From: Gymnothorax reevesii
Lineage: Eukaryota; Chordata; Actinopteri; Anguilliformes; Muraenidae
Assembly: GCA_029721435.1 (NCBI GenBank)
Contig: CM056574.1
Span: 434,001 to 498,000, forward strand
Reading direction: 5' to 3'
DNA: 64,000 nt
Below, piece by piece: positions 28,808-64,000 of the stretch. The notes under the pieces are model-generated. The model was not told the DNA's origin. It saw only the letters and a program-made list of their open reading frames with translations, and did no database searches. How positions within the stretch are numbered: position 1 is the stretch's first letter; the number at the start of each line of letters is the position of its first letter. The position numbers were made by a program, and so were the translations under genes.

Positions 28808-28848
<41 letters not shown>

Positions 28849-29035: not shown

Positions 29036-29074
<39 letters not shown>

Positions 29075-29138: not shown

Positions 29139-30050
29139 CAATTTCAGTTTGCTTTATTAGCCTGACATATTTTAAAATCCATATTGCCAAAGCATAATTA
29201 CAATAAGAAGAACAATAAAAAATATATTAACATTAAAAAGAAAAGTTGGAGTATGCAAATGATAACAGTATTTATAAAATGAATTGCTATGTATTTTGTT
29301 ATAAAAAAGCTACGTAATGTGCACAGGTGCATGGTGTAGCTGGTGGTCATGGGGGTCAGAGGTCACTGCCGTCCCTCAGTCTGTGGCAGGCCGCTGTACG
29401 CTGTCCTGCCAGGTTCCTCTCCTACGAGGATTTTTAATATTTGGGTCATTCTATATGAAATCAAACAATTTTCAGACAGGTTCAGGGGGGGGTCTCAGGT
29501 CTTGTTCTCTATGCAATGCACTACTCTATATTTCAAAGTTGTTTTCACCCTTTTATTGTGGTTTTATTGGCTCCCAAAAATGCTACTTTTACACACTGGT
29601 GTCAAAACATACACATTTAAGGGTTCCATTTTCACACCCTTCTGAAGACGTGTGGATTCCTAGTAATGTCAGCTATTATTAATGGTCAAGAGCTTTCTAT
29701 GGCCATGTATTCATATCCTGTATCATTTATAGATCTTTGGTAATATTGACCCACATTTTAGCCCCCTATGGGGGGGTGACCCTTTTTCGACCCGTTTTTT
29801 CAGGTGTGGGTATCCTTCAATTTTAATGAAACCTTTATTTTGTGAAATCGCAACTGATTTGCAGGCCTAAATGGTTATACTATATGCAGTGTTCAATATG
29901 ATTTGTCCCTATTGTGAAGTGATATGTACTTCCCTGAGATCTGGATCTTTTTTGTAAAATCATTATCTTTGACTTATTCATGTTAACTGTGAAGGCCCAG
30001 CTCTGACAGTGTCTCTCCAGCAGATTGAGGCCCTGCTGTAAACTCTGTGA
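29139..30050 (-). mobile_element. Second LINE copy, 3' part, rearranged
   Basis: From 29139 (AATTTCAG tail, TTTATTAG(C)C(T)GACATA) to about 29430 it is homologous to the 3' end of the large LINE at 15469-15800. From about 29935 to 30050 it matches the RT gene just after the YADD block (LINE positions about 23288-23400). On the minus strand this reads CQSWAFTVNMNKSKIM preceded by LLSPSSQSLQQGLNLLERH. The ~1 kb that should lie between these parts is missing, and about 500 bp of unrelated sequence (29430-29930) is there instead. The upstream side passes directly into the 51-bp array. Confidence 0.8.
29430..29930. other. Unidentified insert in the second LINE
   Basis: About 500 bp with no match to the LINE copy at 15469-28365. 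It contains TCATTCTATATGAAATCAAA and a GGGGGGGTGACCC patch. No reading frame or terminal repeats convinced me. It is probably another repeat family. Confidence 0.5.
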
Positions 30051-32002
30051 TGAGGGAGAGAGCAGGAGGTAAAGATGGAGGCCCTGCTGAAACCGCTGTG
30101 CTGTGTGTGAGAGCAGGAAGTAAAGATTGAGGCCCTGCTGTAACCCTTTTGCTGTGGGAGAGAGCAGGAAGTAAAAATTGAGGCCTTGCTGTAACCCTTT
30201 TCCTGTGGGAGAGAGCAGGAAGTAAAAATTGAGGCCCTGCTGTAACCCCTGTGCTGTGTGAGAGAGCAGGAAGTAAAAATTGAGGCCCTGCTGTAACCCT
30301 TGTGCTGTGGGAGAGAGCAGGAAGTAAAAATTGAGGCCCTGCTGTAACCCCTGTGCTGTGGGAGAGAGCAGGAAGTAAAGACTGAGGCCCTGCTGTAACC
30401 CCTGTGCTGTGGGTGAGAGCAGGAAGTAAAGATTGAGGCCCTGCTGTAACCCCTGTGCTGTCGGTGAGAGCTGGAATTAAAGATTGAGGCCCTGCTCTAA
30501 CTCCTGTGCTGTGGCAGAGAGCAGGAAGTAAAGATTGAGGCCCTGCTGTAACCCCTGTGCTGTGGGTGAAAGCAGGAAGTAAAGACTGAGGCCCTGCTGT
30601 AACCCCTGTGCTGTGGGAGAGAGCAGGAAGTAAAAATTGCGGCCCTGCTGTAACACGTGTGCTGTGGGTGAGAGCAGGAAATAAAGACTGAGGCCCTGCT
30701 GTAACCCTTGTGCTGTGTGTGAGAGCAGGAAGTAAAGACTGAGGCCCTGCTGTAACCCCTGTGCTGTGGCAGAGAGCAGGAAGTAAAGACTGAGGCCCTG
30801 CTGTGACCCTTGTGCTGTGGGAGAGAGCAGGAAGTAGAAATTGAGGCCCTGCTGTAACCCTTGTGCTGTGTGTGATGGCAGGAAGTAAAGACTGAGGCCC
30901 TGCTGTGACCCCTGTGCTGTGGGTGAGAGCAGGAAGTAAAGACTGAGGCCCTGCTGTAACCCCTGTGCTGTGGGAGAGAGCAGGAAGTAAAAATTGAGGC
31001 CCTGCTGTAACCCTTGTGCTGGTGTGAGAGCAGGAAGTAAAGACTGAGGCCCTGCTGTGACCCCTGTGCTGTGGGTGAGAGCAGGAAGTAAAAATTGAGG
31101 CCCTGCTGTAACCCCTGTGCTGTGTGTGAGAGCAGGAAGTAAAGACTGAGGCCCTGCTGTAACCCCTGTGCTGTGGGAGAAAGCAGGAAGTAAAGACTGA
31201 GGCCCTCCTGTAACCCCTGTGCTGTGGGAGAGAGCAGGAAGTAAAGATGGAAGCCATGCTGTAACCCTTGTGCTGTCGGTGAGAGCAGGAATTAAAGATT
31301 GAGGCCCTGCTGTAACCCCTGTGCCGCGTGTGAAAGCAGGAAGTAAAGACTGAGGCCCTGCTGTAACCCCTGTGCTGTGTGTGACAGCAGGAAGTAAAGA
31401 CTGAGGCCCTGCTGTAACCCCTGTGCTGTAGGAGAGAACAGGAAGTAAAGACTGTGGCCCTGCTGTAACCCCTGTGCTGTGGGTGAGAGCAGGAAGTAAA
31501 GATGGAGGCCCTGCTGTGACCCCTGTGCTGTGGGAGAGAGCAGGAAGTAAAGACTGTGGCCCTGCTGTCACCCCTGTGCTTTATGAGAGAGCAGGAAGTA
31601 AAGACTGTGGCCCTGCTGTAACCCCTGTGCTGTGGGTGAGAGCAGGAAGTAAAGATGGAGGCCCTGCTGTAACCCCTGTGCTGTGGGAGAGAGCAGGAAG
31701 TAAAGACTGAGGCCCTGCTGAAACCCTTGTGCTGTGGGTGAGAGCGGAAAGTAAAGACTGAGGCCCTGCTGTAACCCCTGTGCTGTGGGAGAGAGCAGGA
31801 AGTGAAGACTGAGGTCCTGCTGTGACCACTGTGCTGTGGGTGAAAGCAGGAAGTAAAGACTGAGGCCCTGCTGTAACCCCTGTGCTGTGGGAGAGAGCAG
31901 GAAGTAAAGACTGAGGTCCTGCTGTGACCACTGTGCTGTGGGTGAAAGCAGGAAGTAAAGACTGAGGCCCTGCTGTAACCCCTGTGCTGTGGGTGAGAGC
32001 AG
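30017..32002 (-). repeat. 51-bp minisatellite array, first block (~39 units)
   Basis: Head-to-tail units of 51 bp with + strand core GCAGGAAGTAAAGACTGAGG then CCCTGCTGTAACCCCTGTGC and TGTGGGTGAGA. On the minus strand one frame reads LLSPTAQGLQQGLSLYF, which matches the LINE RT segment after the YADD motif (LLSPTTQGLQQHLDLL in the large LINE; LLSPSSQSLQQGLNLL at the array edge). The array grows directly out of the second LINE copy at 30017. Because 51 is a multiple of three and the unit has no stops in the three minus frames, overlapping giant open frames appear; they are by-products. The Gmr1-like insertion at 32003 interrupts the array. Confidence 0.95.
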
Positions 32003-32019
32003 TGTAATGTGAATATAGG

Positions 32020-32034
32020 CCACTAGATGGCAGT
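32020..32034 (+). promoter_or_regulatory. CTCF core motif in LTR 1
   Basis: CCACTAGATGGCAGT fits the vertebrate CTCF consensus CCASYAGRKGGCRSY at all 15 positions. The same motif is at 37431-37445 (LTR 2) and 42842-42856 (LTR 3), all in the same orientation. Binding is not shown. Confidence 0.6.
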
Positions 32035-32074
32035 ATTTACCTTTTTTTGTTAAGCTCAGACTGGAGTCATGTTT

Positions 32075-32095
32075 AGACATGTCCTGGACATGTCT
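32075..32095 (+). promoter_or_regulatory. p53-type response element in LTR 1
   Basis: Two half-sites, AGACATGTCC and GGACATGTCT, each match RRRCATGYYY perfectly and are one base apart. They lie about 65 bp upstream of the TATA box. Repeated at 37486-37506 in LTR 2; deleted from LTR 3. Functional use is inferred. Confidence 0.6.
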
Positions 32096-32498
32096 GGGGC
32101 AAGTCCCCGAAAAGTAAAAAAAAGAGGTCTAAATGTGGGTGGGGTCTGCAAACGAGGATATAAGGAAAAGAATTGAGACAGTAGTGTAGTAGGAGAAATT
32201 GCAAGAAGATGACCAGACCTGCCATTCTGTTCAAGACCTGTGACGTTTCTTTTGTGGATTTCTTTGCCTATGTTTGAGCATTTTCTTCATCCAGGACATC
32301 ACCAAGCCACCCCATTAAAAAGGGACTGTAATTATTTCAGTTTTTTTCTTATTTATCAATCTTGGTCTTTAGTTGTAGGTTGTTATTAGTCTTTGTCTTT
32401 GTTAAAAATTAAATGTGTTTTAGTTGTTAAAACTGTGTTTGTCATCCCTTGCTGTTGCTGTTGTGTTATAAATGTAATAACAAATTGGGGCCATAACA

Positions 32499-32525
32499 AA
32501 TTGGGGGCTCCAGGTCCGGGATAGA
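32499..32525 (+). promoter_or_regulatory. Primer binding site, tRNA-Pro-like with a short insertion
   Basis: Just after the LTR comes TGGGGGCTC, then CAG, then GTCCGGGAT. Without the extra bases it equals the complement of the 3' end of tRNA-Pro, the primer used by many retroelements. The same sequence follows LTR 2. Confidence 0.55.
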
Positions 32526-32581
32526 CCATTGTGTGAGTAATTTATTGAAAATCTAACATTCCAAATTGTGAAATTGTTTTT

Positions 32582-34207
32582 GTGAATTTTCCTAGATATA
32601 TATTGACAACAGCAATGGATGATTTCTTGGCATCACCAACCGTAGGGGTTTTGAAGTCTTTTAAAAAGACAGAACTGCTAGAAATTTGCAGACAGTTGGA
32701 GCTGACAGAGGTAAAACCAGCCATGCGAAAAGCAAGACTGGCTAGAGAGATAGTTGAATATTACATTGATGAAAATGTGTTTGCACCAGGAGATCTGGAA
32801 CAGTTTCCAGTGGAAAATCCAAATATAGAAATGGAACTTAAATTAAAAATGCTAGAGATTGAAAGGGAGGAAAGAGAAAAAGAAAGGGAGGAAAAAGAAA
32901 AACAAAGAGAATTTGAGAGGGAAGAAAAAGAAAAACAAAGGCAGTTTGAGTTAGAAAAATTTGCAAGACAGAGAGATTTTGAATTAGAGAAATTCGATAG
33001 AGAAGAAAGACTCCAAATGGAGCAACTAAAAATTAAAATTGAAACTAAAAATAAATTTTGTGCCAGTCAGGAGGTAAAACTGGTGCCTCCATTTTCAGAA
33101 AAGGATGTTGACAACTATTTCCAGTGTTTTGAAAAGGTAGCAAAGAGTTGCCAGTGGCCAAAGGAACACTGGCCTCTGATGTTGCAAACTGTCCTCAAGG
33201 GTAAAGCTCAACAAGCCTATTCGGCTTTGTCTGCAGATGATTCCTCTGATTATGAGGTTGTCAAAAAGGTTATTTTGAGAGCTTATGAGTTGGTTCCAGA
33301 GGCTTACCGACAGAAATTCAGAGGTCTGAAGAAATCTGAAAATCAGACTTATGTTGAATTTGCTAATGAGAAGCAGGTTTGCTTTGAGCGCTGGTGTACT
33401 TCTATGGAGGTCAAGGATGATTTCAACTCACTAAAAGAGATGGTGTTAGTTGAAGAATTCAAGAACTGTGTTAAGGATGATGTTAAGACCTACCTTAATG
33501 AGAAGCAAGCACTGAATTTGCAATCAGCTGCCAAATTTGCAGATGAATATGTTCTCACTCATAAGTCCAAATTTCAGTCTAGCAGTAACAAAAAATGGTC
33601 CCAATTTCAGAAACAGGGTTACGGTGATACCCAAGATTCCTCACCCAAAGACAAAGACAAATCTGGTGATGGTGCTCAGAAATCCAGTAACAGGTCTGAT
33701 CGAAGTGTGAAAGCTGACAGTGACAAAAGTGGTCTAGTTTGCAGTTATTGCAAGAAATCTGGTCATGTTACAACTAACTGTTGGTTCCTTAAAGCTAAGA
33801 AAGAAAAAGAAAAGGATACCAAACCAAATGCCTTTGTGAAAACAAGGTTAGAAACCCCTGTAGTAGATAACCAATCTGCTAAATTGCCTGCTTCTTGTGG
33901 GGCTAAAAAGCCTAATACAGCTGACTTTGTGAGGGAGGAATTTCTTCCATTTGTGTCAGAGGGATTTGTGGCTCTGAATGAGCATACTACTCCTGTCCCC
34001 ATATATATCCTAAGGGATACCGGAGCTTCTCAGTCACTTTTGTTGATGGACTCCTTGGAGTTACGTGATGAGACCGCTTCAGGGGATTTCATACTTGTAC
34101 AAGGTATTGAAGGGAGGACTGTATCTGTACCCCTGCGCTCTATATTCTTGAAGTCAGATTTAGTTACAGGACAGGTAAAGGCAGTGACCTGGCTTGGGGC
34201 AAAGTAG
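32582..34207 (+). pseudogene. gag: Gmr1-like Gag-protease, copy 1
   Basis: The frame opens at 32582; the ATG at 32615 (MDDFLASPTVG) is a likelier start. A highly charged coiled-coil (about residues 83-155, Glu/Lys/Arg-rich) is followed by a Gag domain resembling the SCAN fold (about 175-330, with YRQKFRGLKK, FxxWC-type segments and LVEEFKNCV). One CCHC knuckle CSYCKKSGHVTTNC lies near 385 and the protease site ILRDTGASQSLL near 476. SCAN domains of vertebrate zinc-finger proteins are known to derive from Gmr1-like Gag. The C-terminal part of protease is shortened by a deletion of some tens of bases, after which the frame meets TAG at 34205; family sequence continues in the next frame (VVPPVHLTSQP). 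The second copy has the same defect. Confidence 0.85.
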
Positions 34208-34284
34208 TTCCCCCTGTACATCTTACTTCACAGCCGAGCACTGAAAATGGGGATGAGGACCCATCTCTGTATCCTTCTTGCGCA

Positions 34285-36000
34285 GTGACTCGTGCTATGG
34301 CCAAGAAGGCTAAAGAAGATGATGTTGTGGTGCCGCCCAGTACATTGAATAGTCAGGACTCAGGTGGTTCGCCTCATGACTCTGATTGGCCTACTATGGT
34401 TTCTCCGTTTGAGGACTTATCAGATACTTTTATCAGTTCTCTATTCAGCCAGCCGGATGGGTCTGGTGATTCTGATGTGTCTGGTGACTTGTCTCTGTCC
34501 AGAAAGCGGTTGATTGAGGAGCAAACTAATGATCCTGAAATTTGTGTACTAAAGAGGAGAGCCCTTCCTGAAAAAGAAATAGATGCAGTTCCAGTTGGGT
34601 ATTATCTCAAGGATGGTGTGTTGATGCGGAAGTGGCGCCCTCCTAATATCCCTGCCAATGCAGATTGGGCAGTGGTCAGGCAAATTGTTGTTCCGAAGGT
34701 CTATAGGAATGAGATCTTAACAATGGCTCATAGTTTACCTTTAGGAGGTCATCTTGGTGTTAACAAGACTGTTGATAAGATCATGAAACACTTCTTTTGG
34801 CCTGGGCTTCGGAAAGACGTTTCCAACTTTTGCAAAACCTGTCACACTTGTCAGGTAGTTGGGAAACACCAGTTAGACCCACCTGTAGCTCCATTGCAGC
34901 CTATCCCAGCATTTGGGGAGCCATTCTCTCGGGTCATTGTTGATTGCGTTGGTCCATTACCCAAGACTAGATCTGGAAATCAGTACTTGTTGACAATCAT
35001 GTGTGCATCTACCAGATTCCCCGAAGCCATACCTCTACGTAACATCAAGGCAACTGCAATCTCGAAGGCTTTGATAAAGTTCTTCACGTTGTTTGGTCTT
35101 CCCAGGGAAATTCAGTCAGACCAAGGTAGCAATTTCACTTCAGGATTGTTTCAGCAGGTTGTGTATGAACAAGGTGCAAAACAGATTCTTTCTAGTGCCT
35201 ATCATCCAGAAAGTCAGGGTGCCTTAGAGCGGTTTCATTCCACTCTCAAGACAATGATGAGGACTTATTGTTATGACCATGAGAAAGACTGGGATGAAGG
35301 GGTTCATTTGCTGTTGTTTGCAGCTAGAGAAGCCGTGCAGGAGTCTACTGGATTCAGTCCATTTGAGCTAGTGTTTGGTCATGAAGTGAGAGGACCTTTG
35401 CTATTATTGAGTGAACAATGGCAAGAGGAAGAGCTGCAAATCAGTCTGTTAGACTATGTTAGCAAGTTCAAGGAAAGATTGCGTGCAGCTTGTGACCTTG
35501 CCAAAGCGAACTTGAAATCAAGTCAGGGAAAAATGAAAACTTGGTATGATCATAAGGCTAGAAGCCGTGAGTTTAAACCAGGAGACAAGGTCCTTGTGTT
35601 GTTTCCCTTGCAGTCCAATCCATTGCAGGCTAGATTTCATGGTCCTTATGAAATTCTGACAAAACTCAATGATCTCAATTACATTGTGAAGACTCCAGAT
35701 AGGAGAAAACCAAAACAATTGTGTCATATTAACATGCTAAAGCCTTATCATGACAGAAATGCTAGGGTTGCAGCTGTCACTTCAGATTCTCCAATGGTCG
35801 AAACGTGTGAAGATGAGGGGGAGTTTCAAGATGATGAACCAAGAATTAAAGCTGAAGTTCTTTCATGTAAATTGTCAAACACTGAAGTGTTGCAAAATCT
35901 TGATGTAAAACTCCAGCACTTAGAACCCTCACAGAGAGATCTGTTTGAAAGGTTGATCAAGTTTGTTTGTTTCCTGATGTTCCAAAGAGAGTTACTATAG
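34285..36000 (+). pseudogene. pol: Gmr1-like Pol part 1: integrase, copy 1
   Basis: The frame is open from about 34210. The ATG at 34285 is internal to pol (SCAVTRAMAKK context), not a true start. The integrase HHCC zinc finger spans about residues 148-190 (HLGVNKTVDKI...CKTCHTCQ). The DDE core follows: VDCVGPLPKTR (about 219), SDQGSNFTS (about 278) and SQGALERFHSTLK (about 308). A C-terminal domain with GDKVLVLFPLQ lies near 434. The presence of a full integrase upstream of RT shows the copia-like order. The frame ends at 36000 through a single-base shift near 35965, and RT begins in the overlapping frame. Confidence 0.9.
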
Positions 36001-37289
36001 TCTCTCATGATGTAGATGTTGGTGATGCCAAACCAATAAAACAGCATCCATACCGGATGAATCCTGAAAAGAGAAAGATTGCTGAGAAAGAGGTTGAGTA
36101 CATGTTAAAACATGATATTATCAGACCCTCCAACTCCGATTGTAGTTCACCCTGTGTGCTAGTTCCAAAACCTGATGGAAGTACTAGATTCTGTACAGAT
36201 TATCGCAAAGTCAATGCTGTAACTAAAACTGATGTGTTTCCAATACCTAGGATTGATGATTGTATTGATAGTGTAGGGCAAGCAAAGTTTCTGACCAAGA
36301 TTGATTTATTGAAGGGTTATTAGTGTGTGCCTTTAACTGAGAGGGCCAAGAGCATCTCTGCTTTTGCCACACCATCTGGATTGTACCAGTATGAAGTCCT
36401 ACCCTTTGGCATGAAAAATGCCCCAGCCACGTTCCAAAGGATGATACAGTCTACAATCGCCGGATTGCCACACACGGGTGCATACATCGATGACCTGATC
36501 ACATGGAGTGACTCCTGGGAAGAACATCTAAAAGATGTAGAGACGTTGTTCCAGCGCCTGACCCAGGCTAACCTGACTGTTAACCTGAACAAGAGTGACT
36601 TTGGTTGTGCTACTGTCACCTATCTTGGCTACGTCATAGGCCAGGGTAAGGTGGCACCCATAAATGCTAAAGTCCAAGCCATCATGGACTTTCCAGTTCC
36701 TGACAACAAAAAAGCTTTGCGCCGCTTCCTTGGAATGATCGGGTACTACCGCAAGTTCTGCAAGAACTTTGCTGAGATTGCTCTCAGTCTAACTAACCAA
36801 CTGAAGAAAGGCGTAAAGTTCACCTGGGATGATGCATGCCAGAGAGCCTTCGATCGCCTGAAGTCTCTGCTGTGTCACTTCCCCGTGCTCAAATCTCCTG
36901 ACTTCAACAAACCGTTCTCCATCGCGGTCGATGCTAGCGACCAAGCTTGTGGATCGGTGCTCCTACAGAGAAGTGACTCTGATGACATTGAGCATCCCGT
37001 GGCATACTTCTCCAGGAAGTTCAATCGCCACCAAAGGAACTATTCCACAATAGAGAAGGAACTGTTGGCTCTGGTCCTTTCTTTACAACACTTTGAGGTT
37101 TATGTTTGTACAGGACAAAAGCCAATGATTGTGTACACTGACCACAATCCGTTAATGTTTTTGAGTAAGATGAAAAACAAGAATCGGAGATTGTTGAATT
37201 GGAGTTTGATTTTACAGGAGTTTGACTTGGAAATTAAGCATGTGAAGGGTACAGACAATGTAATTGCTAATTGCTTATCCCGTGTTTGA
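35967..37289 (+). pseudogene. pol: Gmr1-like Pol part 2: RT and RNase H, copy 1
   Basis: RT starts at about 35967 with PYRMNPEKRK and RFCTDYRKVNAVT, is cut by TAG at 36321-36323 (after IDLLKGY, where Trp is expected) and resumes in frame at 36327. The second part has LPFGMKNAPATFQRM, the YIDD catalytic motif (about 36480-36491), RT thumb and RNase H with IAVDASDQACGS near 36922 and YTDHNPL near 37135. It ends in the tether-like LSRV at 37289. One stop and one frameshift separate this from an intact pol. Both are also present in copy 2, so they predate the duplication. Confidence 0.9.
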
Positions 37290-37430
37290 ATGTGTATACA
37301 ATGTGTTTGAATATTGTATGATATTATATAGACAAGTGTTCACTTAACCATTTTGTATTGAAAAGAAACATTTTGCCTTTATGAGTCAAAATTTTTCCCT
37401 TTTGGAATGGAGGTGTAATGTGAATATAGG

Positions 37431-37445
37431 CCACTAGATGGCAGT
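37431..37445 (+). promoter_or_regulatory. CTCF core motif in LTR 2
   Basis: Same 15-base perfect consensus match as in LTR 1. Confidence 0.6.
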
Positions 37446-37485
37446 ATTTACCTTTTTTTGTTAAGCTCAGACTGGAGTCATGTTT

Positions 37486-37506
37486 AGACATGTCCTGGAC
37501 ATGTCT
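37486..37506 (+). promoter_or_regulatory. p53-type response element in LTR 2
   Basis: Same two perfect half-sites with a 1-bp spacer as in LTR 1. Confidence 0.6.
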
Positions 37507-37992
37507 GGGGCAAGTCCCCGAAAAGTAAAAAAAAGAGGTCTAAATGTGGGTGGGGTCTGCAAACGAGGATATAAGGAAAAGAATTGAGACAGTAGTGTAG
37601 TAGGAGAAATTGCAAGAAGATGACCAGACCTGCCATTCTGTTCAAGACCTGTGACGTTTCTTTTGTGGATTTCTTTGCCTATGTTTGAGCATTTTCTTCA
37701 TCCAGGACATCACCAAGCCACCCCATTAAAAAGGGACTGTAATTATTTCAGTTTTTTTCTTATTTATCAATCTTGGTCTTTAGTTGTAGGTTGTTATTAG
37801 TCTTTGTCTTTGTTAAAAATTAAATGTGTTTTAGTTGTTAAAACTGTGTTTGTCATCCCTTGCTGTTGCTGTTGTGTTATAAATGTAATAACAAATTGGG
37901 GCCATAACAAATTGGGGGCTCCAGGTCCGGGATAGACCATTGTGTGAGTAATTTATTGAAAATCTAACATTCCAAATTGTGAAATTGTTTTT

Positions 37993-39618
37993 GTGAATTT
38001 TCCTAGATATATATTGACAACAGCAATGGATGATTTCTTGGCATCACCAACCGTAGGGGTTTTGAAGTCTTTTAAAAAGACAGAACTGCTAGAAATTTGC
38101 AGACAGTTGGAGCTGACAGAGGTAAAACCAGCCATGCGAAAAGCAAGACTGGCTAGAGAGATAGTTGAATATTACATTGATGAAAATGTGTTTGCACCAG
38201 GAGATCTGGAACAGTTTCCAGTGGAAAATCCAAATATAGAAATGGAACTTAAATTAAAAATGCTAGAGATTGAAAGGGAGGAAAGAGAAAAAGAAAGGGA
38301 GGAAAAAGAAAAACAAAGAGAATTTGAGAGGGAAGAAAAAGAAAAACAAAGGCAGTTTGAGTTAGAAAAATTTGCAAGACAGAGAGATTTTGAATTAGAG
38401 AAATTCGATAGAGAAGAAAGACTCCAAATGGAGCAACTAAAAATTAAAATTGAAACTAAAAATAAATTTTGTGCCAGTCAGGAGGTAAAACTGGTGCCTC
38501 CATTTTCAGAAAAGGATGTTGACAACTATTTCCAGTGTTTTGAAAAGGTAGCAAAGAGTTGCCAGTGGCCAAAGGAACACTGGCCTCTGATGTTGCAAAC
38601 TGTCCTCAAGGGTAAAGCTCAACAAGCCTATTCGGCTTTGTCTGCAGATGATTCCTCTGATTATGAGGTTGTCAAAAAGGTTATTTTGAGAGCTTATGAG
38701 TTGGTTCCAGAGGCTTACCGACAGAAATTCAGAGGTCTGAAGAAATCTGAAAATCAGACTTATGTTGAATTTGCTAATGAGAAGCAGGTTTGCTTTGAGC
38801 GCTGGTGTACTTCTATGGAGGTCAAGGATGATTTCAACTCACTAAAAGAGATGGTGTTAGTTGAAGAATTCAAGAACTGTGTTAAGGATGATGTTAAGAC
38901 CTACCTTAATGAGAAGCAAGCACTGAATTTGCAATCAGCTGCCAAATTTGCAGATGAATATGTTCTCACTCATAAGTCCAAATTTCAGTCTAGCAGTAAC
39001 AAAAAATGGTCCCAATTTCAGAAACAGGGTTACGGTGATACCCAAGATTCCTCACCCAAAGACAAAGACAAATCTGGTGATGGTGCTCAGAAATCCAGTA
39101 ACAGGTCTGATCGAAGTGTGAAAGCTGACAGTGACAAAAGTGGTCTAGTTTGCAGTTATTGCAAGAAATCTGGTCATGTTACAACTAACTGTTGGTTCCT
39201 TAAAGCTAAGAAAGAAAAAGAAAAGGATACCAAACCAAATGCCTTTGTGAAAACAAGGTTAGAAACCCCTGTAGTAGATAACCAATCTGCTAAATTGCCT
39301 GCTTCTTGTGGGGCTAAAAAGCCTAATACAGCTGACTTTGTGAGGGAGGAATTTCTTCCATTTGTGTCAGAGGGATTTGTGGCTCTGAATGAGCATACTA
39401 CTCCTGTCCCCATATATATCCTAAGGGATACCGGAGCTTCTCAGTCACTTTTGTTGATGGACTCCTTGGAGTTACGTGATGAGACCGCTTCAGGGGATTT
39501 CATACTTGTACAAGGTATTGAAGGGAGGACTGTATCTGTACCCCTGCGCTCTATATTCTTGAAGTCAGATTTAGTTACAGGACAGGTAAAGGCAGTGACC
39601 TGGCTGGGGGCAAAGTAG
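37993..39618 (+). pseudogene. gag: Gmr1-like Gag-protease, copy 2
   Basis: Same 541-codon frame as at 32582-34207, with identical protein sequence by eye, including the shortened protease end. One silent-type difference (CTGGGGG for CTTGGGG) lies just before the stop. Coiled coil, SCAN-like Gag domain, CCHC knuckle and DTGAS protease site are as in copy 1. Confidence 0.85.
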
Positions 39619-39695
39619 TTCCCCCTGTACATCTTACTTCACAGCCGAGCACTGAAAATGGGGATGAGGACCCATCTCTGTATCCTTCTTGCGCA

Positions 39696-41411: not shown

Positions 41412-42700
41412 CCTCTCATGATGTAGATGTTGGTGATGCCAAACCAATAAAACAGCATCCATACCGGATGAATCCTGAAAAGAGAAAGATTGCTGAGAAA
41501 GAGGTTGAGTACATGTTAAAACATGATATTATCAGACCCTCCAACTCCGATTGTAGTTCACCCTGTGTGCTAGTTCCAAAACCTGATGGAAGTACTAGAT
41601 TCTGTACAGATTATCGCAAAGTCAATGCTGTAACTAAAACTGATGTGTTTCCAATACCTAGGATTGATGATTGTATTGATAGTGTAGGGCAAGCAAAGTT
41701 TCTGACCAAGATTGATTTATTGAAGGGTTATTAGTGTGTGCCTTTAACTGAGAGGGCCAAGAGCATCTCTGCTTTTGCCACACCATCTGGATTGTACCAG
41801 TATGAAGTCCTACCCTTTGGCATGAAAAATGCCCCAGCCACGTTCCAAAGGATGATACAGTCTACAATCGCCGGATTGCCACACACGGGTGCATACATCG
41901 ATGACCTGATCACATGGAGTGACTCCTGGGAAGAACATCTAAAAGATGTAGAGACGTTGTTCCAGCGCCTGACCCAGGCTAACCTGACTGTTAACCTGAA
42001 CAAGAGTGACTTTGGTTGTGCTACTGTCACCTATCTTGGCTACGTCATAGGCCAGGGTAAGGTGGCACCCATAAATGCTAAAGTCCAAGCCATCATGGAC
42101 TTTCCAGTTCCTGACAACAAAAAAGCTTTGCGCCGCTTCCTTGGAATGATCGGGTACTACCGCAAGTTCTGCAAGAACTTTGCTGAGATTGCTCTCAGTC
42201 TAACTAACCAACTGAAGAAAGGCGTAAAGTTCACCTGGGATGATGCATGCCAGAGAGCCTTCGATCGCCTGAAGTCTCTGCTGTGTCACTTCCCCGTGCT
42301 CAAATCTCCTGACTTCAACAAACCGTTCTCCATCGCGGTCGATGCTAGCGACCAAGCTTGTGGATCGGTGCTCCTACAGAGAAGTGACTCTGATGACATT
42401 GAGCATCCCGTGGCATACTTCTCCAGGAAGTTCAATCGCCACCAAAGGAACTATTCCACAATAGAGAAGGAACTGTTGGCTCTGGTCCTTTCTTTACAAC
42501 ACTTTGAGGTTTATGTTTGTACAGGACAAAAGCCAATGATTGTGTACACTGACCACAATCCGTTAATGTTTTTGAGTAAGATGAAAAACAAGAATCGGAG
42601 ATTGTTGAATTGGAGTTTGATTTTACAGGAGTTTGACTTGGAAATTAAGCATGTGAAGGGTACAGACAATGTAATTGCTAATTGCTTATCCCGTGTTTGA
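41378..42700 (+). pseudogene. pol: Gmr1-like Pol part 2: RT and RNase H, copy 2
   Basis: Same structure as at 35967-37289, with the same TAG (41732-41734) in the RT after IDLLKGY. One substitution is visible (VTIASHD for VTIVSHD). YIDD and RNase H Asp motifs are intact. Confidence 0.9.
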
Positions 42701-55100: not shown

Positions 55101-56999
55101 ACTCCTGTGCTCTGGGAGAGAGCAGGAAGTAAAGATTGAGGCCCTGTTGTAACCTCTCTGCTGTGGGTGAGAGCAGGAAATAAAGACTGAGGCCCTGCTA
55201 TAACCCTTGTGCCGTGGGTGAGGGCAGGAAGTAACGATTGAGGCCCTGCTGTAACCCTTGTGCCGTGGGTGAGGGCTGGAAGTAAACACTGAGGCCCTGC
55301 TGTAACCCCTGTGCTGTGTATGAGAGCAGGAAGTAAACACTGAGGCCCTGCTGTAACCTCTGTGCTGTGGGAGAGAGCAGGATGTAAAGACTGAGGCCCT
55401 GCTGTACCCCCTGTGCTGTGTATGAGAGCAGGAAGTAAACACTGAGGCCCTGCTGTAACCCCTGTGCTGTGGTAGAGAGCAGGAAGGAAAGATTGAGGCC
55501 CTGCTGTAACCCTTGTGCTGTGGGTGAGAGAAGGAAGTAAAGACTGAGGCCCTGATATAACCCTTGTGCCATGGGTGAGAGCAGGAAGTAAAGATTGAGG
55601 CCCTTCTGTAACCCTTGTGCTGTGGTAGAGAGCAGGAAGGAAAGATTGAGGCCCTGCTGTAACCCTTGTGCTGTGGGTGAGAGAAGGAAGTAAAGACTGA
55701 GGCCCTGATATAACCCTTGTGCCGTGGGTGAGAGCAGGAAGCAAAGATTGAGGCCCTTCTGTAACCCTTGTGCTGTTTGAGAGAGTAGGAAGTAATGACT
55801 GAGGCCCTGCTGTAACTCCTGTGCTCTGGGAGAGAGCCGGAAGTAAAGATTGAGGCCCTGTTGTAACCTCTCTGCTGTGGGTGAGAGCCGGAAATAAAGA
55901 CTGAGGCCCTGCTATAACCCTTGTGCCGTGGGTGAGGGCAGGAAGTAAAGATTGAGGCACTTCTGTAACCCTTGTGCCGTGGGTGAGGGCAGGAAGTAAA
56001 GATTGAGGCACTTCTGTAACCCTTGTGCCGTGGGTGAGGGCAGGAAGTAAAGATTGAGGCACTTCTGTAACCCTTGTGCCGTGGGTGAGAGCAGGAAGTA
56101 AAGATTGAGGCCCTGCTGTAACCCCTGTGCTGTGGTAGAGAGCAGGAAGGAAAGATTGAGGCCCTGCTGTAACCCTTGTGCTGTGGGTGAGAGCAGGAAG
56201 TAAAGATTGAGGCCCTTCTGTAACCCTTGTGCTGTTTGAGAGAGTAGGAAGTAATGACTGAGGCCCTGCTGTAACTCCTGTGCTCTGGGAGAGAGCAGGA
56301 AGTAAAGATTGAGGCCCTGTTGTAACCTCTCTGCTGTGGGTGAGAGCCGGAAATAAAGACTGAGGCCCTGCTATAACCCTTGTGCCGTGGGTGAGGGCAG
56401 GAAGTAAAGATTGAGGCACTTCTGTAACCCTCGTGCCGTGGGTGAGGGCAGGAAGTAAAGATTGAGGCCCTGCTGTATCCCCTGTGCTGTGGGTGAGAGC
56501 AGGAAGTAAAGATTGAGGCCCTGCTATTACCCCTGTGCTGTGGGAGAGAGCAGGAAGTAAAGATTGAGGCCCTGCTGTAACCCTTGTGCTGGGGGTGTGA
56601 GCAGGAAGTAAAGACTGAGGCCCTGCTGTAACCCTTCTGCTGTGGGTGAAGACAGGAAGTAAAGATTGAGGCCCTGCTGTAACCCCTGTGCTGTGGGTGA
56701 GAGCAGGAAGTAAAGATTGTGGCCCTGCTGTAAATCCTGTGCTGTGGGAGAGAGCAGGAAGAAAAGATTGAGGCCCTGCTGTAACCCCTGTGCTGTGGGT
56801 GAGAGCAGGAAGTAAAGATTGAGGCCCTGCTATAACCCTTGTGCTGTGGGTGAGAGCAGGAAGTAAAGACTGAGGCCCTGCTGTAACCCTTGTCCTGTGG
56901 GTGAGAGCAGGAAGTAAAGACTGAGGCCCTGCTGTAACCCCTGTTCTGTGGGAGAGAGCAGGAAGTAAAGACTGAGGCCCTGCTATAACCCCTGTGCTG

Positions 57000-59900
57000 T
57001 GGGTGAAAGCAGGCAGTAAAAACTGTGGACCTGCTGTCACCCCTGTGCTGTGGGAGAGAGCAGGAAGTAAAGACTGAGGTCCTGCTGTAACCCCTGTGCT
57101 GTTGGTGAAAGCAGGAAGTAAAGACTGTCGCCCTGCTGTAACCCCTGTGCTGTGTGTGAGAGCAGGAAGTAAAGATTGAGGCCCTGTTGTAACCTCTCTG
57201 CTGTGGGTGAGAGCAGGAAATAAAGACTGAGGCCCTGCTATAACCCTTGTGCCGTGGGTGAGGGCAGGAAGTAAAGATTGAGGCCCTGCTGTAACCCTTG
57301 TGCCGTGGGTGAGGGCAGGAAGTAAAGATTGAGGCCCTGCTGTATCCCCTGTGCTGTGGGTGAGAGCAGGAAGTAAAGATTGAGGCCCTTCTGTAACCCC
57401 TGTGCTGTGGGTGAGAGCAGGAAGTAAAGATTGAGGCCCTGCTATTACCCCTGTGCTGTGGGAGAGAGCAGGAAGTAAAGATTGAGGCCCTGCTGTAACC
57501 CTTGTGCTTGGGGTGAGAGCAGGAAGTAAAGATTGAGGCCCTGCTGTAACCCTTGTCCTGTGGATGAGAGCAGGAAGTAAAGACTGAGGCCCTGCTGTAA
57601 CCCCTGTGCTGTGGGAGAGAGCAGGAAGTAAAGACTGAGGCCCTGCTGTAACCCCTGGTCTGTGGGAGAGCAGGAAGTAAAGACTGAGGCCCTGCTGTAA
57701 CCCCTGTGCTGTGGCGGAGTGCAGGAAGTAAAGACTGAGGCCCTGCTGTAACTCCTGTGCTGTGGGTGAGAGCAGGAAGTAAAGACTGAGGCCCTGCTGG
57801 AACCCTTGTGCTGTGGATGAGAGCAGAAAGTAAAGATTGAGGCCCTGCTGTAACCCTTGTGCCGTGGGTGAGAGCAGGAAGTAAAGACTGAGGCCCTGCT
57901 ATAACCCTTGTGCCGTGGGTGAGGGCAGGAAGTAAAGATTGAGGCCCTGCTGTAACCCCTGTGCTGTGTGTGAGAGCAGGAAGTAAAGACTGAGGCCCTG
58001 CTGTAACCCCTGTGCTGTGGGAGAGAGCAAGAAGTAAAGATTGAGGCCCTGCTGTAACCCCTGTGCTGTTTGTGAGAGCAGAAGGTAAAGACTGAGGCCC
58101 TGCTGTAACCCCTGTGCTGTTTGTGAGAGCAGGAAGTAAAGACTGAGGCCCTGCTGTAACCCTTGTCCTGTGGGTGAGAGCAGGAAGTAAAGACTGAGGC
58201 CCTGCTGTAACCCCTGTGCTGTGGGAGAGAGCAGGAAGTAAAGATGGAGGCCCTGCTGTAACCCTTGTCCTGTGGGTGAGAGCAGGAAGTTAAGACTGAG
58301 GCCCTGCTGTAACCCCTGTGCTGTGGGAGGGAGCAGGAAGTAAAGACTGAGGTCCTGCTGTAACCCCTGTGCTATGGGTGAGAGCAGGAAGTTAAGGCTG
58401 AGGCCCTGCTGTAACCCCTGTGCTGTGTGTGAGAGCAGGAAGTGAAGACTGAGGCCCTGCCGTAACCCTTGTGCTGGGGGTGAGAGCAGGAAGTAAAGAC
58501 TGAGGCCCTGCTGTAACCCTTGTGCTGTGGGTGAGGGCAGGAAGTAAAGATTGAGGCCCTGCTGTAACCCTTGTGCTGGGGGTGAGAGCAGGAAGTAAAG
58601 ACTGAGGCCCTGCTGTAACCCTTGTGCTGTGGGTGAGGGCAGGAAGTAAAGATTGAGGCCCTGCTGTAACCCCTGTGCTGTGGGTGAGATCAGGAAGTAA
58701 AGACTGAGGCCCTGTTGTAACCCCTGTGCTGTGGGAGAGAGAAGGAAGTAATGATTGAGGCCGTGCTGTACCTCCTGTGCTGTGGGAGAAGGCAGGAAGT
58801 AAAGATTGAGGACCTGCTGTAACCCCTGTACTGTGTGTGAGAGCAGGAATTAAAGATTGAGGCCATGCTGTAACCTCTGTGCTGTGGGAGAGAGCAGGAT
58901 GTAAAGACAGGCCCTGCTGTACCCCCTGTGCTGTGTATGAGAGCAGGAAGTAAACACTGAGGCCCTGCTGTAACCCCTATGCTGTGGTAGAGAGCAGGAA
59001 GTAAAGATTGAGGCCCTGCTGTAACCCTTGTGCTGTGGGTGAGAGAAGGAAGTAAAGACTGAGGCCCTGATATAACCCTTGTGCCTTGGGTGAGAGCAGG
59101 AAGTAAAGATTGAGGCCCTGCTGTAACCCCTGTGCTGTTTGAGAGAGTAGGAAGTAATGACTGAGGCCCTGCTGTAACTCCTGTGCTCTGGGAGAGAGCA
59201 GGAAGTAAAGATTGAGGCCCTGTTGTAACCTCTCTGCTGTGGGTGAGAGCAGGAAATAAAGACTGAGGCCCTGCTATAACCCTTGTGCCGTGGGTGAGGG
59301 CAGGAAGTAACGATTGAGGCCCTGCTGTAACCCTTGTGCCGTGGGTGAGGGCAGGAAGTAAAGATTGAGGCCCTGCTGTAACCCCTGTGCTGTGTGTGAG
59401 AGCAGGAATTAAAGATTGAGGCCATGCTGTAACCTCTGTGCTGTGGGTGAGAGCAGGAAGCAAAGATTGAGGCCCTTCTGTAACCCTTGTGCTGTTTGAG
59501 AGAGTAGGAAGTAATGACTGAGGCCCTGCTGTAACTCCTGTGCTCTGGGAGAGAGCCGGAAGTAAAGATTGAGGCCCTGTTGTAACCTCTCTGCTGTGGG
59601 TGAGAGCCGGAAATAAAGACTGAGGCCCTGCTATAACCCTTGTGCCGTGGGTGAGGGCAGGAAGTAAAGATTGAGGCACTTCTGTAACCCTTGTGCCGTG
59701 GGTGAGGGCAGGAAGTAAAGATTGAGGCCCTGCTGTATCCCCTGTGCTGTGGGTGAGAGCAGGAAGTAAAGATTGAGGCCCTGCTATTACCCCTGTGCTG
59801 TGGGAGAGAGCAGGAAGTAAAGATTGAGGCCCTGCTGTAACCCTTGTGCTGGGGGTGAGAGCAGGAATTAAAGATTGAGGCCATGCTGTAACCTCTGTGC

Positions 59901-62900
59901 TGTGGGAGAGAGCAGGATGTAAAGACTGAGGCCCTGCTGTACCCCCTGTGCTGTGTATGAGAGCAGGAAGTAAACACTGAGGCCCTGCTGTAACCCCTAT
60001 GCTGTGGTAGAGAGCAGGAAGTAAAGATTGAGGCCCTGCTGTAACCCTTGTGCTGTGGGTGAGAGAAGGAAGTAAAGACTGAGGCCCTGATATAACCCTT
60101 GTGCCTTGGGTGAGAGCAGGAAGTAAAGATTGAGGCCCTGCTGTAACCCCTGTGCTGTGGGTGAGAGCAGGAAGTAAAGATTGAGGCCCTGCTATTACCC
60201 CTGTGCTGTGGGAGAGAGCAGGAAGTAAAGATTGAGGCCCTGCTGTAACCCTTGTGCTGGGGGTGAGAGCTGGAAGTAAAGACTGAGGCCCTGCTGTAAC
60301 CCTTGTGCTGTGCGTGAGGGCAGGAAGTAAAGATTGAGGCCCTGCTGTAACCCTTGTGCTGGGGGTGAGAGCTGGAAGTAAAGACTGAGGCCCTGCTGTA
60401 ACCCTTGTGCTGTGCGTGAGGGCAGGAAGTAAAGATTGAGGCCCTGCTGTAACCCCTGTGCTGTGGGTGAGAGCAGGAAGTAAAGATTGAGGCCCTGCTG
60501 TAAATCCTGTGCTGTGGGAGAGAGCAGGAAGTAAAGATTGAGGCCCTGCTATTACCCCTGTGCTGTTGGAGAGAGCAGGAAGTAAAGATTGAGGCCCTGC
60601 TGTAACCCTTGTGCTGTGGGTGAGAGCAGGAAGTAAAGACTGAGGCCCTGCTGTAACCCTTGTGCTGTGGGTGAGAGCAGGAAGTAAAGACTGAGGCCCT
60701 GCTATAACCCTTGTGCCGTGGGTGAGGGCAGGAAGTAAAGATTGAGGCCCTGCTGTAACCCCTGTGCTGTGGGTGAGAGCAGGAAGTAAAGATTGAGGCC
60801 CTGCTGTAACCCTTGTGCTGTGGGTGAGAGCAGGAAGTAAAGACTGAGGCCCTGCTGTAACCCCTGTTCTGTGGGAGAGAGCAGGAAGTAAAGACTGAGG
60901 CCCTGCTATAACCCCTGTGCTGTGGGTGAAAGCAGGCAGTAAAAACTGTGGACCTGCTGTCACCCCTGTGCTGTGGGAGAGAGCAGGAAGTAAAGACTGA
61001 GGTCCTGCTGTAACCCCTGTGCTGTTGGTGAAAGCAGGAAGTAAAGACTGTCGCCCTGCTGTAACCCCTGTGCTGTGTGTGAGAGCAGGAAGTAAAGATT
61101 GAGGCCCTGTTGTAACCTCTCTGCTGTGGGTGAGAGCAGGAAATAAAGACTGAGGCCCTGCTATAACCCTTGTGCCGTGGGTGAGGGCAGGAAGTAAAGA
61201 TTGAGGCCCTGCTGTAACCCTTGTGCCGTGGGTGAGGGCAGGAAGTAAAGATTGAGGCCCTGCTGTATCCCCTGTGCTGTGGGTGAGAGCAGGAAGTAAA
61301 GATTGAGGCCCTTCTGTAACCCCTGTGCTGTGGGTGAGAGCAGGAAGTAAAGATTGAGGCCCTGCTATTACCCCTGTGCTGTGGGAGAGAGCAGGAAGTA
61401 AAGATTGAGGCCCTGCTGTAACCCTTGTGCTTGGGGTGAGAGCAGGAAGTAAAGATTGAGGCCCTGCTGTAACCCTTGTCCTGTGGATGAGAGCAGGAAG
61501 TAAAGACTGAGGCCCTGCTGTAACCCCTGTGCTGTGGGAGAGAGCAGGAAGTAAAGACTGAGGCCCTGCTGTAACCCCTGGTCTGTGGGAGAGCAGGAAG
61601 TAAAGACTGAGGCCCTGCTGTAACCCCTGTGCTGTGGCGGAGTGCAGGAAGTAAAGACTGAGGCCCTGCTGTAACTCCTGTGCTGTGGGTGAGAGCAGGA
61701 AGTAAAGACTGAGGCCCTGCTGGAACCCTTGTGCTGTGGATGAGAGCAGAAAGTAAAGATTGAGGCCCTGCTGTAACCCTTGTGCCGTGGGTGAGAGCAG
61801 GAAGTAAAGACTGAGGCCCTGCTATAACCCTTGTGCCGTGGGTGAGGGCAGGAAGTAAAGATTGAGGCCCTGCTGTAACCCCTGTGCTGTGTGTGAGAGC
61901 AGGAAGTAAAGACTGAGGCCCTGCTGTAACCCCTGTGCTGTGGGAGAGAGCAAGAAGTAAAGATTGAGGCCCTGCTGTAACCCCTGTGCTGTTTGTGAGA
62001 GCAGAAGGTAAAGACTGAGGCCCTGCTGTAACCCCTGTGCTGTTTGTGAGAGCAGGAAGTAAAGATTGAGGCCCTGCTGTAACCCTTGTGCTTGGGGTGA
62101 GAGCAGGAAGTAAAGACTGAGGCCCTGCTGTAACCCCTGTGCTGTGGGTGAGAGCAGGAAGTAAAGATGGAGGCCCTGCTGTAACCCTTGTCCTGTGGGT
62201 GAGAGCAGGAAGTAAAGACTGAGGCCCTGCTGTAACCCCTGTGCTGTGGGAGAGAGCAGGAAGTAAAGATTGAGGCCCTGCTGTAACCCCTGTGCTGTAT
62301 GTGAGAGCAGGAAGTAAAGACTGAGGCCCTGCTGTAACCCCTGGGCTCTGTGTGAGAGCAGGAAGTGAAGACTGAGGCCCTGCTGTAACCCTTGTGCTGG
62401 GGGTGAGAGCAGGAAGTAAAGACTGAGGCCCTGCTGTAACCCTTGTGCTGTGGGTGAGGGCAGGAAGTAAAGATTGAGGCCCTGCTGTAACCCTTGTGCT
62501 GGGGGTGAGAGCAGGAAGTAAAGACTGAGGCCCTGCTGTAACCCCTGTGCTGTGGGAGAGAGCAGGAAGTAAAGACTGAGGCCCTGCTTTAACCCCTGTT
62601 TTGTGGGAGAGAGCAGGAACTAAAGACTGAGGCCCTGCTGTAACCCCTGTGCTGTGGGAGAGAGAAGGAAGTAATGATTGAGGCCGTGCTGTACCTCCTG
62701 TGCTGTGGGAGAAGGCAGGAAGTAAAGATTGAGGACCTGCTGTAACCCCTGTACTGTGTGTGAGAGCAGGAATTAAAGATTGAGGCCATGCTGTAACCTC
62801 TGTGCTGTGGGAGAGAGCAGGATGTAAAGACTGAGGCCCTGCTGTACCCCCTGTGCTGTGTATGAGAGCAGGAAGTAAACACTGAGGCCCTGCTGTAACC

Positions 62901-64000
62901 CCTATGCTGTGGTAGAGAGCAGGAAGTAAAGATTGAGGCCCTGCTGTAACCCTTGTGCTGTGGGTGAGAGAAGGAAGTAAAGACTGAGGCCCTGATATAA
63001 CCCTTGTGCCTTGGGTGAGAGCAGGAAGTAAAGATTGAGGCCCTGCTGTAACCCCTGTGCTGTTTGAGAGAGTAGGAAGTAATGACTGAGGCCCTGCTGT
63101 AACTCCTGTGCTCTGGGAGAGAGCAGGAAGTAAAGATTGAGGCCCTGTTGTAACCTCTCTGCTGTGGGTGAGAGCAGGAAATAAAGACTGAGGCCCTGCT
63201 ATAACCCTTGTGCCGTGGGTGAGGGCAGGAAGTAACGATTGAGGCCCTGCTGTAACCCTTGTGCCGTGGGTGAGGGCAGGAAGTAAAGATTGAGGCCCTG
63301 CTGTAACCCCTGTGCTGTGTGTGAGAGCAGGAATTAAAGATTGAGGCCATGCTGTAACCTCTGTGCTGTGGGTGAGAGCAGGAAGCAAAGATTGAGGCCC
63401 TGCTGTAACCCTTGTGCTGTTTGAGAGAGTAGGAAGTAATGACTGAGGCCCTGCTGTAACTCCTGTGCTCTGGGAGAGAGCCGGAAGTAAAGATTGAGGC
63501 CCTGTTGTAACCTCTCTGCTGTGGGTGAGAGCCGGAAATAAAGACTGAGGCCCTGCTATAACCCTTGTGCCGTGGGTGAGGGCAGGAAGTAAAGATTGAG
63601 GCACTTCTGTAACCCTTGTGCCGTGGGTGAGGGCAGGAAGTAAAGATTGAGGCCCTGCTGTATCCCCTGTGCTGTGGGTGAGAGCAGGAAGTAAAGATTG
63701 AGGCCCTGCTATTACCCCTGTGCTGTGGGAGAGAGCAGGAAGTAAAGATTGAGGCCCTGCTGTAACCCTTGTGCTGGGGGTGAGAGCAGGAATTAAAGAT
63801 TGAGGCCATGCTGTAACCTCTGTGCTGTGGGAGAGAGCAGGATGTAAAGACTGAGGCCCTGCTGTACCCCCTGTGCTGTGTATGAGAGCAGGAAGTAAAC
63901 ACTGAGGCCCTGCTGTAACCCCTATGCTGTGGTAGAGAGCAGGAAGTAAAGATTGAGGCCCTGCTGTAACCCTTGTGCTGTGGGTGAGAGAAGGAAGTAA
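57000..64000. repeat. 3.92-kb higher-order repeat within the array
   Basis: The order of unit variants from about 57000 onward recurs from about 60923 onward. Marker variants are offset by 3923 bases at three checked places (57031/60954, 58441/62364, 58741/62664) and by 3925 near the end, after a 2-base difference near 58909. A few units differ (for example around 58130-58250 against 62055-62175), so it is a recent but not brand-new duplication. The second copy is cut by the window edge. Confidence 0.85.

Follow-up and report, generated by a model that had tools for sequence, protein, structure and literature searches.

Several satellites with a stretch of LINE ORF2 in their tandem unit have been described, including, among those listed in PMC9659126, chicken HinfI (derived from CR1), PROsat of Phodopus and Pvc 20 of seals (both derived from LINE-1 ORF2). 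SINE-derived satellites of squamates are reported to carry the parent retroposon at either end of the array, and their units may hold extra bases of unknown origin (PMC10702118); in Lathyrus, satellites are described as having arisen from tandem repeats inside LTR retrotransposons (PMC7004042). For minisatellites, the model of Haber and Louis (1998), as cited in PMC6947457, invokes birth by slippage at flanking direct repeats of 5-10 bp.

Here we describe a 51-bp array of Gymnothorax reevesii, found in a 64,000-nucleotide stretch of contig CM056574.1 (hereafter, the window). Like the satellites described in PMC9659126, it has a tandem unit that contains part of LINE ORF2; unlike them, as characterized there, its unit combines 46 bp of the reverse transcriptase (RT) region with 5 other bp, and the array is intronic, occupies a single locus and still has LINE sequence on both sides. 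With the squamate satellites, as presented in PMC10702118, it shares the parent sequence at the ends and the extra bases in the unit, whereas those satellites derive from a SINE, not a LINE, and occur in many species. The account of Lathyrus (PMC7004042) offers another likeness, the local expansion of a tandem repeat within a retrotransposon; there, however, the short arrays belong to the elements, whereas other copies of the present LINE family show one unit only. Because LINE-ORF2-derived satellites have already been published, this kind of array is not new; it is an unusually easily traced example of a known route of array birth.

Extent of the 51-bp array

Tandem Repeats Finder (TRF) detected 51-bp arrays at 30022-32002 (38.9 copies) and 43294-64000 (406.2 copies), that is, ~445 copies and 22.7 kb in the window, close to the roughly 440 units and 22.7 kb of an earlier note made from the sequence alone, which also had the array continue beyond the window. 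Indeed, the right block runs past the window edge (64000) to ~67981, and the whole array was parsed into 522 head-to-tail units (38 in the left block and 484 in the right block; 26.7 kb), 510 of which are exactly 51 bp long. The minus-strand unit frame given earlier, LLSPTAQGLQQGLSLYF, is present, and the RT segment of the LINE itself forms the final unit of the left block (30018-30067). Near-identical blocks of 23-25 units recur within the array at distances of 75, 76, 98 and 174 units, with paired units differing at no more than one base.

The array is confined to a single locus: with two mismatches allowed, the array junction pattern has 491 matches genome-wide and 491 within the array alone, so that the search of the whole genome found no match beyond the array, and the reversed pattern, used as a control, yielded 0 matches. 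With its tandem units, homology to a transposable element and parental sequence at the edges, the array belongs with the minisatellites and satellites derived from such elements; a single locus of 26.7 kb falls short, in locus number and length, of the strict definition of satellite DNA (very long arrays, many loci, heterochromatin). Further along the contig, the 160 kb that follow contain much larger arrays.

Table 1. Features of the array locus and its surroundings (window positions; features beyond 64000 lie outside the window)
Feature	Position	Strand	Basis
Host-gene exon, part of CH domain; 3' boundary approximate	12593..12699	+	sequence reading
Host-gene exon (SDCSRKLKN), GT donor	15347..15377	+	sequence reading
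Homologous counterpart (YADD...LLSPTTQGLQQHL) in the window's other LINE, not the direct parent	23382..23441	-	73% to left flank
CT/GA-rich array of 55-bp period at LINE 3' tail	28364..29134	-	TRF
LINE family 3' part (3' UTR region), mostly 72-81% identical, one 83-bp piece 89%	28981..29443	-	blastn, 4 of 5 copies listed match
Stretch without LINE match	29444..29849	.	blastn
Another interspersed repeat within that stretch	29700-29849	.	at least 18 genome matches at 85-88%
Left flank: LINE RT segment downstream of catalytic motif, continuous with array	29850..30067	-	85.8-89.9% identity to 19/19 copies L002-L020
51-bp array, left block, 38 parsed units	30018..32002	-	TRF, unit parse
AGCAG, left copy of probable target-site duplication	31998..32002	.	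sequence
LTR retrotransposon, tandem double copy, inserted in array; LTR starts 32003, 37414, 42825	32003..43293	+	RT/RNase H/integrase domains
AGCAG, right copy of probable target-site duplication	43294..43298	.	sequence
51-bp array, right block, to ~67981 outside the window (484 parsed units in all)	43294..64000	-	TRF, unit parse
Right flank: upstream RT piece, same orientation, outside the window	67982-68195	-	alignment to LINE copies
Next host-gene exon (VLITIYWLGKAA...), outside the window	starts ~68752	+	sequence reading

Origin of the unit

Comparison of the consensus with the LINE shows a counterpart for the first 46 of the 51 bp, with 43 of these 46 positions identical; the remaining 5 bp are filler without a LINE counterpart. 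Thus, the earlier proposal that an entire 17-codon RT stretch next to the catalytic DD was amplified holds for 46 bp and fails for the filler. At the three differing positions, the LINE base is kept in 166, 16 and 240 of the 510 units, and the unit adjoining the left edge is among the 16 that retain the LINE's C in CCATCT. The earlier note had staked the RT origin on the unit aligning better than shuffled sequence, and it does: against 2 kb of RT sequence from the other LINE in the window, which encodes endonuclease and RVT_1 domains scoring above the cut-off and, as noted before, YADDLVLLSPTTQGLQQHL at the RT active site, the unit scores 27.0, whereas 200 shuffled versions average 10.5 and reach at most 19.0. 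Elsewhere in the 2.17-Gb genome, other LINE copies match the unit over up to 39/39 bases (E 1.2e-10). A search with a 201-bp piece of the array, in which the best candidates were scored and very common words skipped, listed 35 genome matches, 15 inside the array and 20 in copies of the same LINE family (the 18 loci L002-L019 plus L057 and L058); among these 35 there is no closer, non-LINE ancestor of the kind that the earlier note had named as refuting. Judged by similarity far beyond chance, the unit derives from the RT region of the LINE.

A tree of the units rooted on the LINE, as had been suggested, yielded no clear root: support of 0.9 was reached at only 37 of 218 nodes, and the units closest to the LINE are scattered, marking no founding edge. 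In the reference copy L003, direct repeats of at least 8 bp are absent at 51-bp spacing, but the 51-bp unit begins where one copy of a 9-bp repeat, TCCTGCTCT, lies. The absence of a suitably spaced repeat in L003, together with the filler, may set the unit apart from the Haber-Louis model as outlined in PMC6947457.

The probable parent LINE copy

The array had been said to grow out of the RT gene at its edge, and LINE sequence is found on both flanks. At the left edge, a unit passes into LINE RT sequence without a break, and the reading LLSPSSQSLQQGLNLLERH...CQSWAFTVN is present there in the ORF 29880-30476. The two flanks belong to the same LINE family and are correctly ordered and oriented; the array is all that separates them. 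Between them, ~288 bp of LINE RT, including the YADD codons, are absent beside the array. In 16 of the 19 sampled LINE copies, both flank pieces are present at full length, in the same order as at the array and ~288 bp apart. Because the flanks are of one family, ordered and oriented, with ~288 bp missing between them, the parent appears to be the very LINE copy in which the array sits; its subfamily shows 86-90% identity to the left flank. Previously, the larger LINE at 15-28 kb (15469-28365) had been chosen as the alignment and root reference; it is homologous and is not the nearest source, given that the left flank is only 73% identical to it, compared with 86-90% for the 19 other genomic copies. 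GA-rich tails like that of the array-bearing copy are also found in L003 and L006.

The flanks differ in their divergence: from L002, the left flank differs at 22/218 sites without a gap and the right flank at 40/215 sites plus one gap; private changes number 10 and 23, respectively, and identity to shared reference copies is 90% and 81%. In principle, therefore, two different LINE copies could be involved, the array having grown at the 5' terminus of a younger, truncated left copy next to an older, separate insertion on the right, which would also fit the ~288-bp loss. We consider this unlikely, given that both pieces are correctly ordered and oriented, with nothing but the array between, and that the 3' UTR region of the left copy, mostly 72-81% identical, is about as diverged as the right flank.

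Host intron and inserted LTR retrotransposon

The sequence supports a position of the array, in antisense orientation, within an intron of a limch1/lmo7-like gene, as the earlier note had it; comparison of the joined CH-domain pieces with solved structures gave 0 matches. The exons at 15347..15377 and ~68752 enclose the array, so that the LINE, the array and the LTR elements would share one ~53 kb intron. The gap between the two array blocks is 11.3 kb of LTR retrotransposon sequence, with two tandem copies that, as assembled, show 6 differences in 5,411 bp. The probable target-site duplication would be GCAG if the LTR ends in CA, and AGCAG also occurs within the consensus of the 51-bp unit.

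Proposed history of the array

Very probably, the array grew in place from the RT segment of its host LINE. An old LINE copy would have inserted antisense in the limch1/lmo7-like intron, where a 46-bp piece of RT coding sequence, starting in a valine codon two codons past the catalytic DD, would have been tandemly duplicated together with the 5-bp filler. Slippage and unequal exchange could then have amplified the 51-bp unit to ~520 copies; the ~288 bp of RT between the array and the upstream flank would have been lost either before or after the duplication. In further steps, an LTR retrotransposon entered the array and would have been doubled in tandem, and blocks of 23-25 units were duplicated within the array. 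The sequence itself shows the LINE on either side, the identity of the unit, the restriction to one locus, the LTR insertion inside the array and the repeated blocks; how the first duplication arose, by what mechanism units were exchanged and in which order the steps took place are what we infer here. Points that count against growth in place are the 90% versus 81% identity of the flanks, the undemonstrated source of the filler, the lack of a 51-bp-spaced repeat and the scattered unit tree.

Tandem repeats in sister LINE copies

The array does not stand alone: several tandem expansions, itself included, are found across this LINE family and the surrounding region. The same kind of expansion is seen at other places of ORF2 in 3 of the 19 other family copies, with units of 30, 55 and 187 bp: L009/L063 (30 bp x 37.9 plus 55 bp x about 4-5), L012 (55 bp x 17.4) and L015 (187 bp x 2). 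Exactly at the bounds of the 55-bp unit, the array-free copy L003 carries two copies of the 10-bp CTGCATGCAG, the longest direct repeat in 2.9 kb. The 55-bp sister arrays thus show the short direct repeat flanking the unit in the unduplicated ancestor, here 10 bp at 55-bp spacing, that the Haber-Louis model, as given in PMC6947457, expects. A third 55-bp array, suspected from an alignment gap at C8:4189447-4190213 (L062), proved on reading to be an LTR-type insertion, and a presumed long one at C7:6792659-C7:6796813 comprises about 4 to 5 units where it begins and another short run at the L063 end, with no further array detected by TRF between these two runs.

These expansions of other segments in several copies, along with the Lathyrus precedent (PMC7004042), would be compatible with a tandem repeat that belongs to the LINE family, such that copies with short arrays transposed and the present copy was merely lengthened. 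This is very improbable: among 24 LINE loci scanned (L002-L020 and L057-L061), 20 have one unit-like match, 4 have none under the cut-off (L020 and L059-L061) and 0 have more than one copy of the 51-bp unit, and a genome search allowing two mismatches found the unit junction nowhere beyond the array.

A broader generalization, that the family is a recurrent minisatellite nursery in which short direct repeats of ORF2 turn dead copies into arrays at several set positions (units of 51, 30, 55 and 187 bp observed), and do so more often than DNA of equal age in the same genome, we regard as doubtful. Tandem repeats lie under LINE reference cover in 3 of the 19 loci (L009, L012 and L015) and outside it in 8 (L003, L006, L009, L012, L014, L017, L019 and L020; at least in L003 and L006, these are the LINE's own GA-rich tail). 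This comparison, with the much larger arrays that follow on the contig, does not establish an excess over background.

Open reading frames and unit hairpin

All three minus-strand frames of the array consensus are open, and one minus-strand ORF extends over 3001 aa (49284-58289), which could suggest a coding repeat maintained by selection. We attach practically no probability to this possibility, given that 8 of the 9 possible stop-making changes occur in the RT-derived frame (108 counts over 510 units), that nonsynonymous changes are common in each of the three minus frames and that the sister arrays with 55-bp units are out of frame; the stop-making and nonsynonymous changes rule out protected coding sequence. 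The open frames are a by-product of the 17-codon period, in which few codons can become a stop by a single change, and no coding or host function need be invoked.

The unit can also form a hairpin (stem CCTGCT/AGCAGG), and its fold beats 198 of 200 shuffles on the plus strand (z -2.89) and 192 of 200 on the minus strand (z -1.88). That this hairpin drives or maintains the array is nevertheless quite unlikely, as there is no covariation, with observed pairing departing from expectation by no more than about 0.02 at the 10 pairs tested, and the ancestral LINE segment, for which only the minus strand was folded, has no advantage over shuffled sequence (84 of 200 shuffles equally good).

Implications

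Kilobase-long open frames in arrays of this type are no evidence of genes. The ancestor, the insertion site, the unit boundaries and the later history of this minisatellite can all be read from a single genome; sister LINE copies provide array-free controls, and independent arrays exist in the same family. The founding step of a minisatellite, which is usually lost, is therefore open to comparison.

Origin of the 51-bp array

The 51-bp array very probably arose in place, inside the LINE copy that surrounds it. At the left edge, the last unit continues unbroken into reverse transcriptase (RT) sequence, and this flank is 85.8-89.9% identical to all 19 sampled LINE copies from elsewhere in the genome. 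At the right edge (~67981, in the contig sequence to the right of the window), the array adjoins the upstream part of the RT, and the full right-flank piece shows 79.3-80.9% identity to 16 of the same 19 copies, the exceptions being L009 (an 86-bp match), L010 (an interrupted match, 71.5%) and L014 (no match). The two flank pieces are separated by ~288 bp in the reference copies, and this stretch, which includes the codons of the catalytic YADD motif, is missing at the array locus. Because both flanks are LINE, and the window's larger LINE is related more distantly (73% identity to the left piece and 69% to the right one), the array seems to have expanded within its own LINE copy. The private changes are unequal between the flanks (10 vs 23), which makes two LINE copies, one per flank, a minor possibility.

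As for the copy in which the array most likely expanded, fragments of the LINE family's 3' UTR region are traceable leftward to 28981. Beside the array, a different interspersed repeat interrupts the LINE at 29444-29849, with at least 18 genome matches (85-88%) to 29700-29849. At E of 1e-20 or better, the ORF2 segment of the LINE matches 591 proteins, with 68-69% identity for the best, and Sparus aurata is named among the best 120 of these; judging by such protein matches, relatives of this LINE are present in other fish.

The derivation of the unit from RT, which the earlier note had proposed, is borne out by comparison with the RT stretch of the window's larger LINE, with an alignment score of 27.0 compared to a mean of 10.5 and a maximum of 19.0 for 200 shuffled units. 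Against the nearest LINE subfamily elsewhere in the genome, 43 of 46 bp are identical; the remaining 5 bp of the unit, TTACT, have no counterpart in that subfamily. At the differing unit positions 11, 42 and 43, the LINE base is kept in 166, 16 and 240 of 510 units, respectively. The majority base of the array at position 11 also occurs in L057 and L058, copies of another, more diverged type, suggesting that the founder of the array may lie between this type and the nearest subfamily. A search of the 2.17-Gb genome (window, G000:C2:434001-498000) with a 201-bp array piece, in which the best candidates alone were scored and very common words were skipped, yielded 35 matches, 15 within the array and 20 elsewhere, namely, 18 LINE copies (L002-L019), L057 and L058.

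Coordinates of the array, its surroundings and the arrays in sister LINE copies (positions above 64000 lie to the right of the window)
Feature	Position	Strand	Unit and copies	Remark
Host gene, CH-domain pieces	~8950; 12593-12699; 15347-15377	+
GA/CT-rich tail array	28364-29134			TRF
LINE, left flank of array	29850-30067	-
51-bp array, left block	30022-32002		51 bp, 38.9 copies	TRF
Tandem double LTR retrotransposon	32003-43293			LTR starts 32003, 37414, 42825
51-bp array, right block within window	43294 to window end		51 bp, 406.2 copies	TRF
LINE, right flank of array	67982-68195	-		outside window
Host gene, next piece, VLITIYWLGKAAQSC...	start ~68752	+		outside window
Array in LINE copy L009	L009:1748-2884 (C7:6789435-6792659)		30 bp x 37.9	ORF2 (VNELKEKA-like), LINE on both sides
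Second repeat in L009	beyond the 30-bp array		55 bp, ~4-5 units together with locus L063	another ORF2 segment
Array in LINE copy L012	L012:1922-2875 (C13)		55 bp x 17.4	ORF2
Repeat in LINE copy L015	L015:2113-2487 (C16)		187 bp x 2	100% match by TRF, inside LINE copy

Confinement to one locus and evolution of the units

The array is confined to one locus. A unit-junction pattern (at most 2 mismatches) has 491 genome matches, all on one strand, compared to 0 for the backwards control; 491 is the whole count, the ~100 listed places are all at C2:464058-480885, and the fetched array sequence likewise contains 491 junctions, from 30058 to 67911. Among 24 LINE loci scanned, none has more than one unit-like match and 20 have exactly one, with none under the cut-off in L020, L059, L060 and L061.

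The array was parsed into 522 units (484 + 38), of which 510 are exactly 51 bp long and show a mean identity to the consensus of 93.3%. Blocks of 23-25 units recur at distances of 75, 76, 98 and 174 units, with at most one base difference per unit pair, a pattern that fits unequal exchange; a tree of the units was without resolution.

All three minus frames of the consensus are open, and each of them shows frequent nonsynonymous changes. A protected coding repeat was rejected: 8 of the 9 possible stop-making changes are seen in the RT-derived frame (108 counts in 510 units). The unit is predicted to form a hairpin (z of -2.89 on the plus strand and -1.88 on the minus strand); the ancestral LINE segment, for which the minus strand alone was folded, shows no advantage over shuffled sequence. 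Hairpin constraint was likewise rejected, with pairing across units within ~0.02 of the expectation at 10 pairs.

Host intron and LTR retrotransposon

Exons of a plus-strand gene are found on both sides of the array, so that the LINE, the array and the LTR elements occupy an intron of ~53 kb, antisense to the gene. For DUF4757, a later exon pair scores above the Pfam cut-off (32.5 bits vs 27), whereas the joined CH pieces match CH weakly, below the cut-off (14.2 bits vs 26, E 0.052), and a comparison of these pieces with solved structures found nothing. The putative assignment of the gene to the limch1/lmo7 family rests on the DUF4757 exons, the weak CH match and motifs that we take to be those of this family.

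The array is split by a tandem double LTR retrotransposon and, given that it flanks this element on both sides, apparently predates the insertion. AGCAG is present at each side; a target-site duplication is probable but short of proven because AGCAG also occurs within the 51-bp unit. Between the element's two copies (5,411 bp each), 6 sites differ; LTR1 matches LTR2 exactly, and LTR3 has 9 differing sites and 26 gapped positions. The double element reflects either LTR recombination or an assembly artefact.

Arrays in sister LINE copies and known systems

Internal tandem repeats of LINE sequence were detected in 3 of the 19 sampled copies (L009, L012 and L015; see the table). In L003, a copy free of the array, the two boundaries of the 55-bp unit are marked by a 10-bp direct repeat, CTGCATGCAG, at a 55-bp spacing, which matches the slippage model of PMC6947457. 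No direct repeat spaced by 15-200 bp is longer across 2.9 kb, but this one is informative solely by its position at the array boundary because direct repeats of at least 10 bp appear in 53 of 100 shuffles. The start of the 51-bp unit falls at one copy of a 9-bp repeat, TCCTGCTCT, and no direct repeat of at least 8 bp at a 51-bp spacing was found in L003.

Of the 19 sampled loci, 8 have tandem repeats outside the LINE reference, and minisatellites abound in the region: the next 160 kb of the contig include one of 44 bp x 437 (C2:527609-546828), and another, of 27 bp with at least ~1,880 copies, spans C2:607313-658000 or beyond. We therefore claim no special status for the LINE. Located less than 0.7 Mb from the start of a 179-Mb contig, the region may be subtelomeric. 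A 72-bp x 18 array (TRF) lies 14 kb to the right of the window (C2:512220-513518, locus L032); one of its frames resembles the linker between endonuclease and RT in another LINE, so this is possibly a second array derived from LINE coding sequence nearby. The ORF1-like frame of the window's larger LINE contains a 27-bp x 7.7 repeat (PPTQPGPSA-like, 26787-26992).

No report of the 51-bp unit or of a minisatellite in a limch1/lmo7-like gene was found in one open-access library. Published work describes HinfI, PROsat and Pvc 20 as satellites with LINE ORF2 sequence (PMC9659126), arrays bearing the parent SINE at either end (PMC10702118) and the expansion of tandem repeats within LTR elements (PMC7004042). 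The kind is already known, and the 51-bp array adds a clear new example to it.
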